DNA from: Clostridium sp. CMCC3677
GTDB lineage: Bacteria > Bacillota > Clostridia > Clostridiales > Clostridiaceae
NCBI RefSeq assembly: GCF_023845585.1
Contig: NZ_JAMQHS010000001.1
Span: 434,001-498,000, forward strand
Length of the DNA stretch: 64,000 nucleotides
Direction of reading: 5' to 3'
Shown here: positions 29,951-45,070 of the stretch, piece by piece
Numbering within the stretch: the first letter of the stretch is position 1
Layout of the letters: each line of letters begins with the position of its first letter
Program-made: the position numbers and the translations under genes
The notes under the pieces: generated by a model
Databases searched by the model: none
The model's input: only the letters and a program-made list of their open reading frames with translations
Told to the model about the DNA's origin: nothing

Positions 29951-30010
29951 TGAAAATCATTTTCAAGTTTGGATAAAAGTGTTATAATATCATCATGATA
30001 ATAATTATCA
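29951..30010 (+). promoter_or_regulatory. Two Fur boxes around the feo promoter
   Basis: TGAAAATcATTTTCA (29951-29965) and TGATAATaATTATCA (29996-30010) are both perfect 7-1-7 inverted repeats of the Fur type. A TATAAT -10 lies between them at 29983-29988. Iron-bound Fur should clamp the promoter from both sides. Confidence 0.85.
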
Positions 30011-30087: not shown

Positions 30088-30297
30088 ATGCCATTAATAT
30101 TAGCAAATACAGGACAAAGTATGCCAATTAAAAAAATTAGAGGTAATGATGAGACTAAAAAGTTCCTATCAAGTTTAGGATTTATTGCAGGAGAAACTGT
30201 AAGCATTATTTCTGAAATTGCAGGAAGTTTAATAATAAAAGTAAAGGGAAGTAGAATAGCATTAGATAAAGCTATGGCTAGTAGAATAATAGTTTAA
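30088..30297 (+). CDS. feoA: FeoA-type protein (first copy)
   Basis: 69 residues, SH3-like FeoA domain: MPIKKIRGNDETKKFLSSLGFIAGETVSI and a closing IALDKAMASRIIV. A small cytosolic partner of the FeoB ferrous iron permease. First gene of the feo locus behind two Fur boxes, with GGAGGAG before the ATG. The second feoA follows 13 bases later. The two copies are clearly diverged, so they probably have distinct roles. Confidence 0.9.
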   Translation: MPLILANTGQSMPIKKIRGNDETKKFLSSLGFIAGETVSIISEIAGSLIIKVKGSRIALDKAMASRIIV

Positions 30298-30799: not shown

Positions 30800-32950
30800 A
30801 TGTCAATAAAGATAGGTCTTGCAGGTAATCCCAATTGTGGAAAGACAACTATGTTTAATGACCTTACAGGATCAACACAATATGTAGGTAACTGGCCAGG
30901 GGTAACAGTAGAAAAAAAGGGTGGTAAATTAAAATGGAATAAGGATGTTGAAATTGTAGATTTACCAGGTATATATTCACTTTCACCGTATACGCTTGAA
31001 GAAGTTGTGACACGTGATTTTATGATGAATGATAAACCAGATGTAATAATTAATATAATTGATGCATCTAATATTGAAAGAAACTTATATTTAACTACTC
31101 AAATTTTAGAACTTGGAATTCCAACAGTTTTAGCACTTAATATGATGGACATTGTTGAAAAAAATGGTGACAAGTTAAAGATAGAAAAGCTTTCAGAACT
31201 ATTAGGCTGTCCAATTGTTGAAACTTCAGCTATAAAAGGAAAAGGTATTAAAGAAGTTGTTGAAAAAGCAATTGAACTTTCAAAAAAAGAAAATGCTAAT
31301 AACTTTAAGCTAGAGCTATCACAAGAAGTAGAAAGTTCTATAAAAGATATTGAACAAGCTTTAGATAACAGCAGTTTTAAGAATGAAATAGATACTAGAT
31401 GGTTGTCTATTAAACTTTTTGAGCGTGATAAAAATATTTTAAGTAATAATAAATTTTCGAAAAATGTGTTAGATAAAGTAGAAGAAATAATAAATAAATG
31501 TGAAAATGAACTTGATGATGATAGTGAAAGTATAATTACGGGAGAACGTTATGATTTTATTGGAAAAGTAGTTTCTAAAGCAGTAAGAAAGAATAATAAA
31601 AATGATGAAACTACATCAGACAAAATTGATAAGATTGTAACAAACCGTTTTTTAGCGCTTCCTATTTTTGCATTAATTATGTGGGGAGTATATTACATAG
31701 CTGTAAGTTCACTTGGAACTATAGCTACAGATTGGACAAATGATACATTATTTGGAGAAATTATAAGTGGAAATGTTTCAACTTGGCTTGAAGGGTTAGG
31801 CGTAGCAGAATGGTTACAAGGATTAGTAGTTGATGGTTTAATTGGTGGAGTAGGAGCAGTATTAGGATTCGTACCTCAAATTATGATATTATTCTTCCTA
31901 TTATCAATACTTGAAGATTGTGGGTATATGTCACGTGTTGCGTTTATAATGGATAGAATATTCCGTAAGTTTGGACTTTCAGGAAAATCATTTATACCTA
32001 TGCTTATCAGTTCAGGTTGTGGAGTTCCAGGAATTATGGCAACTCGTACTATGGAAAATGATAGAGATAGAAAAATGACAATTATGTTAACTACATTTAT
32101 TCCATGTGGTGCTAAGGTTCCTATAATAGCATTGCTTGCAGGAGCAATATTTGGTGGAGCATCATGGGTAGCACCATCAGTATATTTTTTAGGAATTATA
32201 ATGATAATTATTTGTGGAATTCTTTTAAAGAAGACTAAACTATTTCAAGGAGAGCCAGCTCCATTTGTTATGGAACTTCCACAATATCATATACCAAGTT
32301 TAAAAGGCGTTCTTATGCATATGTGGGATAGAGGAAAGGCATTTATTATAAAAGCTGGTACAATTATATTTGTTGCTTGTGGAGCAATTTGGTTTATGCA
32401 ATCATTTAATTGGTCATTAGAAATGGTAGATGCTGGTGACAGTATACTAGCAAGTATAGGAAATGTTTTTGCACCAATTTTTGCACCATTAGGTTTTGGT
32501 AATTGGCAGTCTGCGGTTGCAACAATCACTGGACTTGTAGCAAAAGAAAATGTTGTAGCAACATTTGGTATACTGTTTGGTATTGCAGAAGCAACAGAAG
32601 AAGATCCAACACTTCTTATGAATGTAGCAGGAATGTTTACAGCAGTAAGTGCATTTTCATTCATAGCATTTAATATGCTTTGTGCTCCTTGTTTTGCAGC
32701 AATAGGTGCAATAAAAAGAGAAATGGGTTCATGGAAATGGACTTGGATTACATTAGGATTCCAAACAGGTACAGCATATCTTGTTGCATTATTAATAAAT
32801 CAAGTTGGTAATGCTTTATTCTATGGTGGAAATATAATAGGCGCACTTATATCTATCGCTATAGTAGTAGCAATAATAGCTGGAATTCTATTATCAAATA
32901 AAAAATCAGTAAATATAAATAGTAATGTTAAATTAAGTTATATAAAATAG
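30800..32950 (+). CDS. feoB: Ferrous iron transport protein B
   Basis: 716 residues. Cytosolic N-terminal G domain with G1 GNPNCGKTTMFNDLTG (residue 9), G3 DLPGIYSL, G4 NMMD; a helical GDI spacer (about 170-260); then a membrane domain of about 10 helices with the two Gate motifs (GCGVPGIMATRTMENDRDRK near 410 and NMLCAPCFAAIGAIKRE near 625). It imports Fe(II) under anoxia. AAGGGGGAAGAC before the ATG. A small Cys-rich FeoB-associated protein follows. Confidence 0.97.
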   Translation: MSIKIGLAGNPNCGKTTMFNDLTGSTQYVGNWPGVTVEKKGGKLKWNKDVEIVDLPGIYSLSPYTLEEVVTRDFMMNDKPDVIINIIDASNIERNLYLTTQILELGIPTVLALNMMDIVEKNGDKLKIEKLSELLGCPIVETSAIKGKGIKEVVEKAIELSKKENANNFKLELSQEVESSIKDIEQALDNSSFKNEIDTRWLSIKLFERDKNILSNNKFSKNVLDKVEEIINKCENELDDDSESIITGERYDFIGKVVSKAVRKNNKNDETTSDKIDKIVTNRFLALPIFALIMWGVYYIAVSSLGTIATDWTNDTLFGEIISGNVSTWLEGLGVAEWLQGLVVDGLIGGVGAVLGFVPQIMILFFLLSILEDCGYMSRVAFIMDRIFRKFGLSGKSFIPMLISSGCGVPGIMATRTMENDRDRKMTIMLTTFIPCGAKVPIIALLAGAIFGGASWVAPSVYFLGIIMIIICGILLKKTKLFQGEPAPFVMELPQYHIPSLKGVLMHMWDRGKAFIIKAGTIIFVACGAIWFMQSFNWSLEMVDAGDSILASIGNVFAPIFAPLGFGNWQSAVATITGLVAKENVVATFGILFGIAEATEEDPTLLMNVAGMFTAVSAFSFIAFNMLCAPCFAAIGAIKREMGSWKWTWITLGFQTGTAYLVALLINQVGNALFYGGNIIGALISIAIVVAIIAGILLSNKKSVNINSNVKLSYIK

Positions 32951-37615: not shown

Positions 37616-38432
37616 AATAATAAAAGAAGCATTATTAGAGGATATTCCAAATGAAGATATAACAACAAATTCAATAATAAAAGAAAGTAGCATATGCACA
37701 GTAGACCTATTATGTAAAGAGGAGGGAATACTTTCAGGATTAGAAGTATTTAAAAGAGTATTTGATATTTTAGGAAATGTTCAGATTGGATTTAATAAAA
37801 AAGATGGTGATAAAATATGTCCTGGTGAAAAAATTGCTTTATTGAAAGGTGATACACGTAATGTATTATTAGGCGAAAGAGTAGCATTAAATTTACTACA
37901 AAGAATGAGTGGTATAGCAACTCTTACAAATAAATTTGTTAACAAAATAGAGCATACAAGGGCTAAGTTATTAGATACTAGAAAGACAACTCCTAATTTA
38001 AGAATTTTAGAAAAGTATTCAGTAAAAATTGGTGGGGGAGATAACCATAGGTTTAATTTATCTGATGGAATTATGCTTAAAGATAATCATATAAGTGCAG
38101 CTGGTGGAATAAAAAAGGCAGTTGAGATGTGTAAAAAGAATTCATCATTTGTTAGAAAAATAGAAGTGGAGGCAGAAACATTAGATATGGTTAATGAAGC
38201 ATTAGAAGCTAAAGTGGATATAATAATGCTTGATAATATGAATTTGAAAACAGCAAAGGAAGCAGTAAGAATAATTAATAATAGGGTTTTAATAGAATTT
38301 TCAGGTAATGTAAATATAGATAACATAAAAGAAATAGCAGAAATAGGAGTTGACTATATATCAGTGGGGGCGTTAACTCATTCAGCTAAAATATTAGACT
38401 TAAGTATGAAAAATTTAAGTATTCTAGATTAA
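37593..38432 (+). CDS. nadC: Nicotinate-nucleotide pyrophosphorylase
   Basis: 279 residues. Converts quinolinate plus PRPP to nicotinate mononucleotide. Characteristic pieces: ALLEDIPNEDITTNSII at the N-terminus, LNLLQRMSGIATLT near 105, DTRKTTPNLRILEKYSVKIGGG near 130, HRFNLSDGIMLKDNHI, and EVEAETLDMVNEAL near 190. Last gene of nadABC, starting inside nadB behind GGGGGAATGG. A strong terminator follows. Confidence 0.96.
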   Translation: MNYLVVDKIIKEALLEDIPNEDITTNSIIKESSICTVDLLCKEEGILSGLEVFKRVFDILGNVQIGFNKKDGDKICPGEKIALLKGDTRNVLLGERVALNLLQRMSGIATLTNKFVNKIEHTRAKLLDTRKTTPNLRILEKYSVKIGGGDNHRFNLSDGIMLKDNHISAAGGIKKAVEMCKKNSSFVRKIEVEAETLDMVNEALEAKVDIIMLDNMNLKTAKEAVRIINNRVLIEFSGNVNIDNIKEIAEIGVDYISVGALTHSAKILDLSMKNLSILD

Positions 38433-38435
38433 AAT

Positions 38436-38502
38436 AAAATTGATATTATAAATGTAAGCTTAATTACTATAAATTAAATCTTACATTATAATATCAATTT
38501 TT
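38436..38502 (+). terminator. nadABC terminator
   Basis: A 23-base near-perfect inverted repeat (38436-38458 with 38480-38502), running from an A tract to a T tract, with a 21-base loop. Bidirectional by sequence. Confidence 0.88.
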
Positions 38503-38703
38503 GATTTAAGACCTATCAACTTAGCAGAAAATTTATATATTCATAAATTAAACAAGATTCTGTTTTAGTAAATTATATAAGCAAGTTAAAGACATAGAAT
38601 TTTAATAGAAATTTTATATTATAAACAATTAAAAAATAAATTTTAAATTTTTCTAATAAAGTATTGACAATAGTACAAAATAGAGATATTATAATATTGT
38701 AAA

Positions 38704-38718
38704 TGAGAATCAATCTCA
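38704..38718 (+). promoter_or_regulatory. Fur-like operator at the sRNA start
   Basis: TGAGAATcAATCTCA: five-base perfect outer arms and strong similarity to the TGATAATnATTATCA boxes at feo and at the AraC gene. Located a few bases after the predicted start point. Confidence 0.6.
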
Positions 38719-38970
38719 AAGCAAACATAACTCATTCAATGACAAATGAGACAAATTATTGCTATACACAATAAAAATTTTACCAAAGCAAAGATTTTAT
38801 GAAGTGTACTATGAAAAAATAAATTAGCAAGTATTGAAAGCACACACTCAAAATACTAATTTACTAAATAAATAATTGCGTGACCTTATTATTTAGTTTG
38901 GATTTTTTCTGTTCTCCCTAAGAAAAAGTACATTTCATCAAATTATATATTATAATTAATCATACGTATT

Positions 38971-39016
38971 AAAATAGAAACTGCTGATAAAATTGTTATC
39001 AGCAGTTTTTATTTTA
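38971..39016 (+). terminator. Strong terminator ending the gene-free region
   Basis: AAAATAGAAACTGCTGATAA (38971-38990) pairs with 38996-39015 with a single mismatch and a 5-base loop. No annotated gene lies upstream on this strand after nadC's own terminator, so it must belong to a non-coding transcript. Confidence 0.85.
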
Positions 39017-39192
39017 TCCATATTTTGAATAAATGTTTATATATTATTTAACATTAAATTTTAAAGAACTAAGAGTAATATGTTATTATAGTTAATGGAA
39101 AGAATTTTATATGAATAAGTTATTGAAGCAAAGTTTTAAAAAATATATAAATTATATATAGAACTTTATTTAATTAAGAAAGTGAGGAAATC

Positions 39193-40074
39193 ATGAATTT
39201 AGATAATTTTAGTAATAGAAGTAAAGGAATAATATTTATAATATTATCAGCATTTGGATTTGCAATGATGTCAGCTTTTGTTAAGCTTTCAGGAGATTTA
39301 CCATCTTTACAAAAATCATTTTTTAGAAATTTAGTAGCAAGTTTAATTGCTTTAAGTTTAATAATTAAACATAAAGAAAGCTTTTTTGGAAAAAGAGAAA
39401 ATCAAAAGATTCTTGTATTAAGATCTTTATTTGGAACACTGGGAATTGTATTGAATTTTTATACAATAGATAAATTAGTTTTATCAGATGCTAATATGCT
39501 AAATAAATTGAGCCCATTTTTTGTGATTATTTTTTCAGCTTTATTTTTAAAAGAAAAAATAAATACAAAACAAATCATATCTTTAATAATTGCATTTTTA
39601 GGAGCATTATTCATTATAAAGCCATCATTCAATCTTGAAGTAATATCGGCTTTAGCAGGAGTTGGTGGTGCTATATTTGCAGCAGCAGCTTATACTTGTG
39701 TAAGAGAATTGGGGGGAAAAGAAAAACATTATACGATAGTATTTTATTTTTCAACTTTTTCATCAATAGTATTATTTCCATTTATGATGCTATCCTATAA
39801 ATCTATGACTATGATGCAATTAATTTATTTGATATTAGCAGGTGTTTTTGCAAGTGTAGGTCAATTTGGAGTAACTTTAGCTTATAAGTATGCACCAGCT
39901 AAGGAAATATCAATCTTTGATTATTCTAACATATTATTCTCAGCTATAATAAGTTTAGTTATATTTGGAGCATTACCAGATCACTTAAGTATTATAGGAT
40001 ATTTAATAATATTTACAGCTTCATTATATATGTTTCTATACAATAAAAAATTAGACAAGGTTCAAAGTAAGTAA
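39193..40074 (+). CDS. DMT-superfamily EamA transporter
   Basis: 293 residues with ten membrane helices in two EamA repeats (about 12-135 and 150-285). The typical end-of-repeat sequence LNKLSPFFVIIFSALFLKEKI near 105 recurs as FDYSNILFSAIISLVIFGALP near 255. A drug/metabolite-family permease; the substrate cannot be told. ATG after GAAAGTGAGG. Monocistronic, just before the riboswitch region. Confidence 0.88.
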   Translation: MNLDNFSNRSKGIIFIILSAFGFAMMSAFVKLSGDLPSLQKSFFRNLVASLIALSLIIKHKESFFGKRENQKILVLRSLFGTLGIVLNFYTIDKLVLSDANMLNKLSPFFVIIFSALFLKEKINTKQIISLIIAFLGALFIIKPSFNLEVISALAGVGGAIFAAAAYTCVRELGGKEKHYTIVFYFSTFSSIVLFPFMMLSYKSMTMMQLIYLILAGVFASVGQFGVTLAYKYAPAKEISIFDYSNILFSAIISLVIFGALPDHLSIIGYLIIFTASLYMFLYNKKLDKVQSK

Positions 40075-40148: not shown

Positions 40149-40190
40149 GTGGGAGAGGTTCGAAGACCATCCCTCTATAAAAAACTAGGC
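40149..40190 (+). promoter_or_regulatory. preQ1 class I riboswitch
   Basis: GGGAGAGGTTCGAAG, then ACCATCCCTCTATAAAAAACTA: the P1 stem GAGGG/CCCTC type with the loop and the diagnostic A-rich tail ending AAAAAACTAG that forms the H-type pseudoknot. It agrees with the preQ1-I consensus in length (about 40 bases) and order. It is followed by terminators and the queuosine-salvage genes, so binding of preQ1 should cause termination. Confidence 0.9.
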
Positions 40191-40208
40191 AATTAAATAA
40201 GATTTAAT

Positions 40209-42968: not shown

Positions 42969-43050
42969 TTGACAGAGGAAAATATAAATGCTACGCTTTT
43001 AAAAGTTAGACTAGTCTTACATTTTTGTATAGCACGGGCATAGGTGTTAT
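42969..43050 (+). promoter_or_regulatory. Promoter, palindrome and leader hairpin before the first iron-binding protein
   Basis: TTGACA (42969-42974), 17-base spacer, weak TACGCT (42992-42997), then the perfect palindrome AGACTAGTCT (43008-43017) and a hairpin ATAGCAC/GTGTTAT (43029-43050). The same order recurs before the second binding-protein gene at 45203-45284, with a compensating base pair in the hairpin. The weak -10 fits an activator-dependent promoter. Confidence 0.6.
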
Positions 43051-43090
43051 TCAGGTTAAAAATAAGATGTTTATAAGGGAGAGATATAAA

Positions 43091-43984
43091 ATGAAAAAAT
43101 TATTGTCATTATTTTGTACAATATTTATGACTACTTTAATTTTAGTTGGTTGTTCTTCAGCTAAGGATACTACTAAAAAAGAAGAAGCTGTTCGTACTGT
43201 AAGTACTGTAAGAGGTGATGTTAATGTTCCTGCTAATCCTAAAAGAGTTATTGCTACTTATGGAATGGGTGATGTTTTGGCTTTAGGAGTTAAACCAGTA
43301 GCTACATATGATGCAAAAGGTAGTGCTTATGAAAAAGAGGTAGAGGGTTTACCTGTATGGGAAAAGTTTGAACCAGAAGAGATAATGAAATATGATCCAG
43401 ACCTTATTCTTGTTGTAAGCGAAGAAAAGATTGATGAATTTTCTAAGATTGCTCCTACAGTTTATATTCCTTTTACTACTCTTAATATGGAGGAGAGAAT
43501 AGCCTTTTTAGGGGAGGTTTTAAATAAAAAGGAAGAGGCAGAAAAGGCACAGTCTGATTTTAAAGAAAAGATAAATAATGCAAAGAAAGAATTGGATTCT
43601 AAAAAAATTATGGATAAGAAATTCAGTATTTTTGAAAGCAACCAAAATGGAGGAGTTTGGGTGTATGGTGATAAATGGGGCCGTGGAGGCGACCTAATTT
43701 ATAGTCAATTAGGATTCAAAGCACCAGATGTTATACAGAATGAAGTTATTGGTAAAGATCAGCATCGAGAGATTTCTCTTGAAACAATTAAGGATTATGC
43801 TGGAGATTACATAATATTTAGTGGAGAGATTGGGAAACTAGCGAACAATCCAGTTTGGCAGTCAATTCCGGCAGTTAAAGAAGGACATGTTATACCAATT
43901 GATTTTACATTATTTTATGATATAGATATTTACTCATCTAATGTACAGTTAGATTATATTATGAATAAATTACTAGAAAGTTAG
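43091..43984 (+). CDS. Iron-siderophore ABC transporter binding lipoprotein (first copy)
   Basis: 297 residues. Lipoprotein signal MKKLLSLFCTIFMTTLILVG with the lipobox Cys at about 21, then a FecB/FepB-type two-lobe fold: RVIATYGMGDVLALGVKPVA near 58, EEIMKYDPDLILV near 105, and a C-terminal W-S-I-PA-V motif (VWQSIPAVKEGHVIPID). It binds a ferric siderophore or heme outside the membrane. The ATG at 43091 has AAGGGAGAG ahead; a longer reading from 43025 lacks one. The N-terminus is nearly identical to the gene at 45323 and the rest is diverged. No permease genes of its own adjoin. Confidence 0.85.
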   Translation: MKKLLSLFCTIFMTTLILVGCSSAKDTTKKEEAVRTVSTVRGDVNVPANPKRVIATYGMGDVLALGVKPVATYDAKGSAYEKEVEGLPVWEKFEPEEIMKYDPDLILVVSEEKIDEFSKIAPTVYIPFTTLNMEERIAFLGEVLNKKEEAEKAQSDFKEKINNAKKELDSKKIMDKKFSIFESNQNGGVWVYGDKWGRGGDLIYSQLGFKAPDVIQNEVIGKDQHREISLETIKDYAGDYIIFSGEIGKLANNPVWQSIPAVKEGHVIPIDFTLFYDIDIYSSNVQLDYIMNKLLES

Positions 43985-44030: not shown

Positions 44031-44999
44031 TTATAAATTAAAAGATTTTCTAAAATAACTAGGAGTAATTCCATGTACATCTTTAAAGGCAGCAGCAAAT
44101 TTTGCTGGATTTTTATAGCCGCATAGTTCAGATATGTTACGAATACTTAGATGGTCAGCAGATAAAAGCTGCATGGCTCTTTTCATGGTTTCTATGCGAA
44201 TATATTTATAAAGGGGAATTCCATAGTGGTTTTTAAAAGATTCACGAAGCTTGCTTTCGCTCATTTCAGCTATTCTGCATAGTTCAATTATAGCTGGAGG
44301 GTTCAAAATATCCTCATCAATTTTAGTTTTCACTTCATAAATCTTTTGCTCATTTTCCCAAGTAACATAGTGACGGCGGCTGCTTCTTATTTTAGGTATA
44401 TCAGGGAAATTTCTAGTGATTGCAGATAATAGATGCAAAGTCATACCCTCAAAAGCAAGTAAAGGCATGTCTGTATTTCGTACAGCCCATCTAATTTGTT
44501 CCAAAATAAGCATTATATCAGGGGTATTGTAATGTTGTGTTTTCCAAAGCTTCGCATCCTCAACACTGATTTTAGGTGCATTGGTGCGATCTTTGAGAAA
44601 AGGTTTTATAAAGCCATCAAAAATTAAAACACTGGTAAAACAATAGTGTACGTCTTTAGAGAAAGTAAAGGTAAATTGTTTTTGAGGATTAATAATTAGA
44701 TGAGTGATAGGGGATAAAGCTTGCTTCTTCTTTCCTTGCTGTGAATAGACTATTTCTCCGCAGTCAATACAAAAAAGCAGCATAAAAGGATCACTAGAAT
44801 TTATTGTATGTACTATCTGTTCACTTGGAGTAAGCCAAGCACTTGAAACAAATAATCCTTTAGCAGGGTTTATTTCTGCAATCCATCCATTTGACCAATG
44901 ATGTGGAAAATCATAAATTTGCCCTTTGCCATAGGGTCTTTTAGTAAGATTATATTTATCCGCTAAAGCTTTCCAAGAAGAATCTTTATATTCATACAT
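44031..44999 (-). CDS. AraC-family transcription regulator of iron uptake
   Basis: 322 residues. C-terminal double helix-turn-helix AraC domain (about 230-320): PAIIELCRIAEMSESKLRES and LSIRNISELCGYKNPAKFAA, ending GITPSYFRKSFN. The N-terminal part is a ligand-sensing domain of the type seen in siderophore-responsive activators. It lies between two binding-protein genes that share upstream palindromes, and its own promoter overlaps a Fur box. The likely role is to activate both loci when the siderophore is present and iron is low. AGAGAGGTG before the ATG. Confidence 0.85.
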   Translation of the reverse strand: MYEYKDSSWKALADKYNLTKRPYGKGQIYDFPHHWSNGWIAEINPAKGLFVSSAWLTPSEQIVHTINSSDPFMLLFCIDCGEIVYSQQGKKKQALSPITHLIINPQKQFTFTFSKDVHYCFTSVLIFDGFIKPFLKDRTNAPKISVEDAKLWKTQHYNTPDIMLILEQIRWAVRNTDMPLLAFEGMTLHLLSAITRNFPDIPKIRSSRRHYVTWENEQKIYEVKTKIDEDILNPPAIIELCRIAEMSESKLRESFKNHYGIPLYKYIRIETMKRAMQLLSADHLSIRNISELCGYKNPAKFAAAFKDVHGITPSYFRKSFNL

Positions 45000-45055: not shown

Positions 45056-45070
45056 TGAGAATGATTTTCA
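45056..45070 (-). promoter_or_regulatory. Fur box in the AraC-regulator promoter
   Basis: TGAGAATgATTTTCA, a 7-1-7 Fur-type repeat with one mismatch. On the minus strand it overlaps the -35 TTGAAA, with TATAAT 18 bases further on, so Fur would block the regulator's promoter. Confidence 0.75.

Follow-up and report, generated by a model that had tools for sequence, protein, structure and literature searches.

The gap between nadC and an EamA transporter gene in Clostridium sp. CMCC3677 holds, as a fairly probable overall explanation, a free-standing RNA gene that arose from a Fur-controlled flavodoxin–DUF3793 operon through loss of the protein-coding parts. Two elements of this explanation are firm as far as sequence comparison goes, namely common descent with an operon at the same locus in relatives and a conserved RNA pairing at the mRNA 3' ends of the intact relatives. 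The likeliest role suggested by these comparisons is that of a Fur-controlled regulatory RNA that is usually the tail of an mRNA. The window analyzed here is a stretch of 64,000 nucleotides (positions 434,001 to 498,000 of contig NZ_JAMQHS010000001.1, assembly GCF_023845585.1), and all positions are those of the window unless another locus is named.

The nadC gene ends at 38432 and the transporter gene starts at 39193. The intervening gap (38433–39192) was correctly described as free of ORFs in an earlier note on this DNA, but it measures 760 bases and not 690. No ORF of at least 50 aa was listed on its plus strand, and no ORF with conserved residues of the flavodoxin or DUF3793 families was found in the gap, the part encoding CGYWKVY being deleted. 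A hidden ORF was rejected, as only broken fragments of the old frame remain and the plus strand has no 50-aa ORF, and searches for a plasmid or phage origin of the region returned no match. Directly 3' of nadC, an AT-rich inverted repeat (38436–38501, 16/16 pairs) is probably the terminator of nadC itself. The features recognized in the gap are the following:

38664–38692, plus strand: promoter TTGACA-N17-TATTAT, score 11/12, with the same −35, spacing and −10 in relatives.
38699–39016, plus strand: expected RNA of about 310–320 nt with no ORF, deduced from promoter and terminator; fold z −4.5.
38704–38718, plus strand: Fur-like box TGAGAATCAATCTCA at the expected transcription start, 11/14; orthologous boxes in C. 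weizhouense and C. uliginosum.
38731–38750, plus strand: 5' hairpin CTCATT/AATGAG, for which no match to the old operon was found.
38793–38810, plus strand: 5' arm of helix P1, old DUF3793 codons Asp-Phe-Met-Lys-Cys, within a conserved 31-nt island.
38820–38863, plus strand: hairpin P2 with loop GCACACACUC and CACAC at 38841; the loop aligns with old Lys-x-His-Thr-Leu codons.
38864–38901, plus strand: hairpin P3 with loop UUGCGUGACCU (UCGCGUGACCU in relatives); best but weak match to model R2 in the 64 kb.
38905–38926, plus strand: hairpin exposing GUUCUCCCUA, old codons ...Phe-Cys-Ser-Pro-stop.
38927–38944, plus strand: 3' arm of P1, old 3'UTR ahead of the terminator.
38970–39016, plus strand: intrinsic terminator, orthologous to the terminator of the relatives' operon.

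The predicted fold of the 314-nt RNA was better than those of 100 out of 100 dinucleotide shuffles (z −4.5). A 12-base long-range stem and a hairpin with an exposed C-rich loop had been proposed earlier, and both were recovered. The stem joins 38799–38810 to 38927–38938 in 12 unbroken pairs, a length attained in 46 of 20,000 shuffles of the arm regions, and the 11 pairs that were checked had pair probabilities of 0.81–1.0. In the loop at 38911–38920, UUCUCCCUA was unpaired at 0.78–0.99. By alignment with the intact genes, the UUCUCCCU loop is formed by the old C-terminal Cys-Ser-Pro-stop codons, and the long-range stem pairs former codons with the former 3'UTR. P3 of the window, in its own fold, has 13 pairs with a bulge.

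The promoter and the Fur-like box on its start point, both of which had also been predicted, are present as listed. Fur-like boxes were scored over 14 positions against a 7-1-7 consensus. The scores alone are not above chance: 17 promoter-like sites were observed in 2.4 kb against 21.5 expected, and Fur-like sites scoring at least 11 numbered 26 on the 64-kb plus strand, one shuffle having 33. The window promoter and box count as evidence because their positions match those in orthologous operons. The −35, spacing and −10 recur before the intact operon of C. weizhouense (L025) and before an RNA-only copy in C. puniceum described below, and the Fur box at the predicted promoter, the mark by which a Fur-regulated small RNA is recognized in sequence, has a placement common to the relatives. 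A site scoring at least 11 was found in 26 of 29 flavodoxin upstream regions, which include that of the window genome's own second operon, versus 165 of 2,000 shuffled upstream regions. Three PF01475 genes were found in the window genome. Three terminator-like sites were observed in 2.4 kb versus 0.2 in shuffles, two of them being both strands of 38970–39016; the strong terminator that had appeared to have no gene to serve is thus real, but it formerly served the flavodoxin and DUF3793 genes. On these sequence features, the window RNA is probably Fur-controlled and ORF-less, with exposed C-rich loops.

Descent from the operon was established by comparison with related genomes. When 68 genomes of the genus were searched at the DNA level, 16 had some match at E ≤ 0.001. 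In C. weizhouense (G067) and C. uliginosum (G065), the promoter and the 3' block matched at the orthologous locus, about 1 kb from each other, and the two blocks are separated by genes encoding a 137-aa flavodoxin (PF00258) and then a 207-aa DUF3793 protein (PF12672, E 1.5e-48 and 2.8e-46); the order in both species is nadB-nadC-[Fur box-flavodoxin-DUF3793-terminator]-EamA. A wider search for the 3' block in 206 genomes of the family found the same two species only, the other matches being short terminator or AT-rich stretches. The window promoter and Fur box are 75–77% identical to those of the relatives' operons, a 31-base island (38790–38820) is 90% identical to C. weizhouense and 87% to C. 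uliginosum, and the 3' block from 38862 and the terminator are also retained. No trace of the remaining parts of the two genes was found in the window by blastn. The distance from the Fur box to the P1 arm is 903 bases in C. weizhouense versus 74 in the window, and that from the P1 arm to the old stop is 192 versus 129 bases, i.e., 63 shorter, with further indels in this interval. The conserved DUF3793 stretches CGYWKVY and CPHELGLFLGIP are absent, and the RNA parts are retained. It is practically certain from this comparison that the stretch is the protein-free leftover of a flavodoxin–DUF3793 operon from the same locus. The idea of an independently built small RNA of the RyhB/FsrA design therefore had to be abandoned, since the region represents the remains of an operon found at the same locus in relatives.

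The window genome carries a second flavodoxin–DUF3793 operon, 50% identical and with a Fur-like box of 12/14, in which no P1 partner within 420 bases of 3'UTR and no R2 match were found. Loss of the protein without loss of the RNA at the window locus makes sense because this other operon has no RNA domain. In C. gasigenes (L123, 2900–3620), a Fur-like box lies directly before DUF3793, without a flavodoxin gene, an arrangement that may be an intermediate of gene loss.

P1 was found to pair DUF3793 codons with the 3'UTR ahead of the terminator in 20 Clostridium species. These form clade 1 (n = 7: C. weizhouense, C. uliginosum, C. cibarium, C. vincentii, C. sp. DSM 8431, MAG SIG252, and C. gasigenes) and clade 2 (n = 13), of the C. 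beijerinckii type, which includes C. beijerinckii HUN142, C. puniceum, C. chromiireducens, and C. neonatale. In intact genes, the 5' arm consists of the codons Asp-Phe-Met-(Glu/Lys/Asn)-Cys; its 3' partner is in the 3'UTR, at most 30 bases after the stop in clade 1 and 79–335 bases after it in clade 2, where 15 to 17 of 17 pairs form without a gap and the terminator comes next. All 13 clade-2 loci had p 0.000–0.03 in an ungapped test; several of these species are close kin, and counts over clade 2 are not independent. In clade 1, the same test gave p 0.007 for C. weizhouense, 0.08 for C. uliginosum, and 0.38–1.0 for the five other loci, which fail because the pairing has a bulge or is partial. 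When bulges were allowed, six of the seven clade-1 loci reached p ≤ 0.008, and DSM 8431 had p 0.09. L065 was not among the parsed loci in the P1 counts.

Matched changes were seen in the two arms: Cys TGC in L051 and L066 goes with TGCA, and Asn AAC in L038 and L039 with GTT. When the 3' arms were re-dealt among 21 taxa, none of 20,000 deals was as good as the 326 of 354 pairs observed (re-dealt mean 90.0%); the margin is small because the P1 arms are conserved, and the force of the argument lies in the matched changes. In a cognate-arm test on eight taxa, 0.36% of all permutations were as stable. Compensatory changes can also be produced without selection by template-switch repair between inverted repeats.

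P1 is not a general feature of DUF3793 genes: 12 of 57 loci had p ≤ 0.01 in the ungapped test, and most distant loci had no P1. L080 and L082, outside the family, had p 0.002 in the bulge-allowing test (45 loci), with pairing 23–24 bases after the stop; a 420-base ungapped test gave p 0.040 (at +191) and 0.98, and they were taken as unrelated. L132 (C. cadaveris) was likewise rejected, with p 0.033 in one test (33 of 80 loci parsed) and 0.997 in the ungapped test. An apparent lack of P1 in the C. beijerinckii group, suggested by 45–60 bases of 3'UTR, was discarded, given that P1 sits farther out in this group, at the distances indicated above.

In the intact relatives, a conserved structure thus lies at the mRNA 3' end together with a terminator, as is expected of a regulatory RNA derived from an mRNA 3' end, and it is very probable from this pairing that the relatives share a conserved RNA domain. 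No relevant match to Rfam 15 was found in the 7 clade-1 or the 13 clade-2 loci; that library has no family with this fold.

The hairpin P3 consists, inside the DUF3793 coding end of most relatives, of the codons (Ile/Met)-Leu-x-Gly paired with Leu-Ala-x-Ser-Ile. An ungapped alignment of 19 species had 90.4% of its cells paired versus 84.7% in shuffles, and the covariation score was 0.290 versus 0.195, with none of 500 shuffles as high in either measure; slid registers paired at 29–51%. Weaker measures were the double-change pairs, reached by 41 of 500 shuffles, and the pair types, reached by 13 of 500. Alignment A5 excludes L051, which has a 3-base insertion. Three P3 pairs (columns 7-43, 10-40, and 13-37) link third codon positions on both sides, and each of the three is variable; two of them account for seven of the ten double changes, with at least one side synonymous in each. 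Columns 10-40 and 13-37 were unpaired in five and four of the 19 species, respectively, and P3 was poor in two clade-1 species.

The P3 loop of the relatives was kept as rare codons, with TCG in 18/19, CGT in 13/13 Arg, GAC in 17/17 Asp, and CTC in 14/19; in 19 other ORFs of the clade-1 loci, TCG represents 2.7% of Ser codons and CTC 0.1% of Leu codons. When synonymous constraint was ranked over 203 five-codon segments of DUF3793 in 19 species, L043 being entered with a shortened start, the P3 loop took the two top ranks, followed at ranks 3 to 5 by the P1 5' arm and the codons preceding it. In clade 1 alone, with eight-codon segments, the P1 arm was second, residues 74–81, with few comparisons, were first, and the P3 loop was outside the 15 segments listed. 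The C-terminal Pro of clade 1 was encoded by CCC in 5/5 cases, a codon used for 1.5% of Pro, and CCC-stop was present in five of the seven clade-1 loci. By these codon counts, clade 1 conserves the C-rich loop as a nucleotide sequence. It had been expected that the element would be conserved in relatives: the box, the stem, and the terminator are indeed kept, but conservation of the C-rich loop is confined to clade 1. Rather than this loop being a universal core, the wider family probably shares P1 and, in most members, hairpins with CACAC loops, as judged from the aligned loci.

From the stop to the P1 3' arm plus the terminator, 11 of the 13 clade-2 species have 3–5 CACAC each (overlapping counts). 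Over the 3'UTRs and terminators of all 20 relatives, 47 CACAC were counted against 1.7 expected from base shuffles. Among 34 CACAC-type motifs drawn from the 13 clade-2 loci, the C. puniceum copy, and the window, some of these species being close kin, 29 were in loops of perfect stems of at least six pairs, compared with 779 of 3,832 positions at large (20%). Such recurrence of one loop type on stems of differing sequence would fit a protein sponge, in which repeated CACAC-loop hairpins titrate an RNA-binding protein and do not pair with mRNAs. We find this reading doubtful: the window has a single CACAC hairpin (P2) and the C. puniceum copy two, CACAC is absent from the clade-2 loci L040 and L066 and occurs once across all seven clade-1 3'UTRs, and there is no candidate protein. 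As a separate observation, CTCCTCC, which resembles an anti-Shine-Dalgarno sequence, was seen immediately after the DUF3793 stop in L041, L046, L050, and L058, and AATTAACCACCATA recurs farther downstream.

A second RNA-only locus was found in C. puniceum DSM 2619. The P1 3'-arm pattern gave 14 matches in 12 of the 68 genomes and none in the backward control. Twelve matches were DUF3793 3'UTRs and one was new (G020:C98:136148, minus strand); the last (G067:C36), with no element seen by eye nearby and a weak R2 match (E 0.11) elsewhere in the locus, was taken as chance. At the new locus, TTGACA-N17-TATTAT is followed by a Fur-like box TGAGAATGATTTTCA (12/14) on the start point. Next come a P1 5' arm that over 33 bases shares 94% identity with the relatives' DUF3793 codons, a pair of hairpins whose loops are CACACGC and CCACACACG, the 3' arm of P1, and a terminator. 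No ORF of at least 80 aa was found in this copy, the longest open stretch on the own strand of the 242-base element being 30 codons, and its MFE was −41.9 versus −15.5 in mononucleotide shuffles. The Fur box and the P1 arm are 125 bases apart in the copy, compared with 906 in the intact C. puniceum operon (L041). Searches of the copy gave no P3 match, and a plasmid or phage origin was rejected after searches with no match. The promoter, Fur box, P1, CACAC hairpin, and terminator are common to the window and the C. puniceum copy. Comparison of these sequences suggests that RNA-only versions probably arose twice, each form being known from one genome; we infer separate events because the nearest relatives differ (clade 1 versus clade 2).

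These loci also bear on whether the fold acts in cis only, through mRNA stability, termination, or control of flavodoxin–DUF3793 expression, with the RNA-only loci as by-products. In most species the fold does sit in an mRNA, with its closing arm ahead of the terminator. We nevertheless consider a purely cis-acting element unlikely, as the two ORF-less loci keep their own Fur promoter and therefore have no mRNA to serve, and as the multiple CACAC loops on differing stems resemble recognition sites for something else.

Descent of the window piece from the operon being certain, the piece could be a dead operon, i.e., a decaying pseudogene in which the promoter and terminator are not yet eroded and the RNA is inert. 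Model R1, built from the seven clade-1 relatives, did not find the window element, and R2 gave 19 bits on the window P3, at E 0.35 for the whole 64 kb and E 0.0042 when the intergenic region was searched by itself; in the R2 family register, three pairs of the window P3 are broken. Decayed copies do exist: in G028 (L253, 1394–1801), a broken EamA duplicate is followed by a decayed DUF3793 3' end with 40 bits in R2. With two broken pairs versus three in the window, this remnant was rejected as a clean decay control for the stem. However, it has lost the loop motif and showed no match to the P1 3'-arm pattern, whereas the window keeps GCGUGACCU; the loop motif alone favors the window over the remnant. 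Moreover, the pieces that survive in the window are RNA parts (the island with the P1 arm, the P3 loop, the P1 3' arm, and the terminator), P1 retains its consecutive pairs, and the Fur box and P1 arm have been brought together at both RNA-only loci. We thus regard a dead operon as an improbable, if serious, alternative.

At 4-fold sites of the flanking genes, 139 of 250 positions (55.6%) were identical between the window and C. weizhouense, with 46% expected at random; these sites are close to saturation, yet the RNA parts have survived. By simple arithmetic, a 31-base island placed at random in the roughly 1 kb ahead of the 3' block has a chance of about 1.5% of covering the 17-base P1 arm. 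In C. paraputrificum (G019), the best EamA match to that of the window, neither a clade-1 operon nor a match to the element was found. On balance, the retained parts suggest that the window RNA is probably still functional; our estimate was held at this level because the decayed G028 copy outscores the window with R2.

We therefore return to the free-standing regulatory RNA as the preferred reading. At low iron, Fur would leave the box at 38704–38718, and an RNA of about 315 nt would then be made. P1 would close the domain ahead of the terminator, and the hairpins inside it would present unpaired C-rich and CACAC loops. These would act in trans, the likeliest mode being base pairing to the ribosome-binding regions of mRNAs. 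For most relatives, this domain would be the 3' end of the flavodoxin–DUF3793 mRNA, one transcript carrying both protein information and a regulatory RNA. The window species would have kept the RNA part alone, its other flavodoxin–DUF3793 operon having a Fur box and no RNA domain.

Seed complements were searched in the window genome and gave no convincing target, with 29 of the 111 sites of the second seed inspected. The AAGGTCAC seed had 11 sites versus 37 in the backward control; one was the element itself, and none of the other 10 was at a ribosome-binding site. The AGGGAGAA seed had 111 sites versus 105 in the backward control, and seven of those inspected lay before an ORF, with no clear Fe-S target. 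Action by mRNA pairing in iron starvation, a role suggested by the exposed loops, is accordingly put forward tentatively, at a little under an even chance. The chances appear evenly balanced that these loci represent a new Clostridium RNA family that is Fur-controlled, closed by P1, often CACAC-looped, carried as the tail of a flavodoxin mRNA, twice free-standing, and acting in trans at low iron through antisense seeds or as a protein sponge. If so, an iron-responsive RNA of Clostridium has been concealed in coding sequence, beyond the reach of screens of intergenic regions, and small RNA genes have been caught arising from mRNAs through loss of the reading frame. The mRNA of the little-studied DUF3793 would gain a testable second role, and the RNA-only cases in the window species and C. 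puniceum offer natural material for separating RNA function from protein function.

In a scan of the window with the 4227 families of Rfam 15, the sole match at gathering level was a preQ1 riboswitch (40149–40194, 53 bits). It is followed by genes for what we take to be a nucleoside hydrolase (40466), an ECF-type membrane protein (41470), and a radical-SAM-like protein (42023), presumably for queuosine salvage. Elsewhere in the window, two Fur-like boxes (12/14 and 14/14) at 29951–30010 precede a small ORF at 30090; 30800–32950 presumably encodes a FeoB-like protein, and together these would make up a Fur-controlled iron transport operon. Another box of the sequence seen in C. puniceum (12/14) lies at 45056, near what we assume to be genes for an AraC-type regulator (44031–44999, minus strand) and a siderophore-binding-like lipoprotein (43025–43984). 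Among the relatives' loci, a cobalamin riboswitch was noted near the DUF3793 operon of G003 (L050, 2983–3160) and a fluoride riboswitch in the C. weizhouense locus (L025, 7786–7845).

At 38600–39100, Rfam 15 gave mir-type matches only, all below their gathering scores. A known riboswitch or small RNA identity was rejected, with no relevant match in the window, the relatives, or the C. puniceum copy. Homology to RyhB, FsrA, or IsrR was likewise rejected for want of a match, the presence of these three models in the library being taken on trust; with the same proviso, the earlier note was right to see no likeness to RyhB or FsrA.

No description of the element was found in the listed open-access titles and abstracts on Clostridium Fur, iron, or flavodoxin small RNAs, on structured RNAs of Firmicutes, and on small RNAs from pseudogenes. 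In C. difficile, the flavodoxin gene fldX is strongly induced by iron limitation, has a second, longer transcript, and is described as monocistronic (PMC10913485). In the open-access literature searched, DUF3793 occurs in one paper, which concerns a fungus.

Several known systems share part of this design. RNAs of the CsrB/RsmZ type titrate an RNA-binding protein via repeated hairpin loops; they are similar in having several hairpins with one loop motif, but the motif is GGA and not CACAC, and no binding protein is known here. RsaC of S. aureus is a small RNA derived from the 3' end of the mntABC mRNA and, like the present domain, is a regulatory RNA carried by the 3' end of an mRNA under metal control; unlike RsaC, the Clostridium domain is closed by codon–3'UTR pairing and has RNA-only loci with their own Fur promoter. 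RyhB of enterics resembles the window RNA as a Fur-repressed small RNA between genes, and differs in that no Rfam match was found here. FsrA of Bacillus subtilis is similar in being Fur-controlled; it differs in that it is not known to be part of an mRNA and that no Rfam match was found here. In the accessible portion of one report, FsrA is said to bind Shine-Dalgarno sequences via a C-rich motif (PMC9410917), a further point of likeness. For IsrR, the same portion of that report describes a promoter with Fur boxes, a terminator, and C-rich single-stranded stretches within hairpins or next to them, all of which recall the window RNA; as a difference, an IsrR gene was present in all Staphylococcus genomes screened (PMC9410917). 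A codon–3'UTR helix, CACAC loops, and an origin from an mRNA are not among the features of IsrR described there (PMC9410917). By analogy with the features so described, IsrR of Staphylococcus is the nearest functional analogue of the Clostridium RNA.
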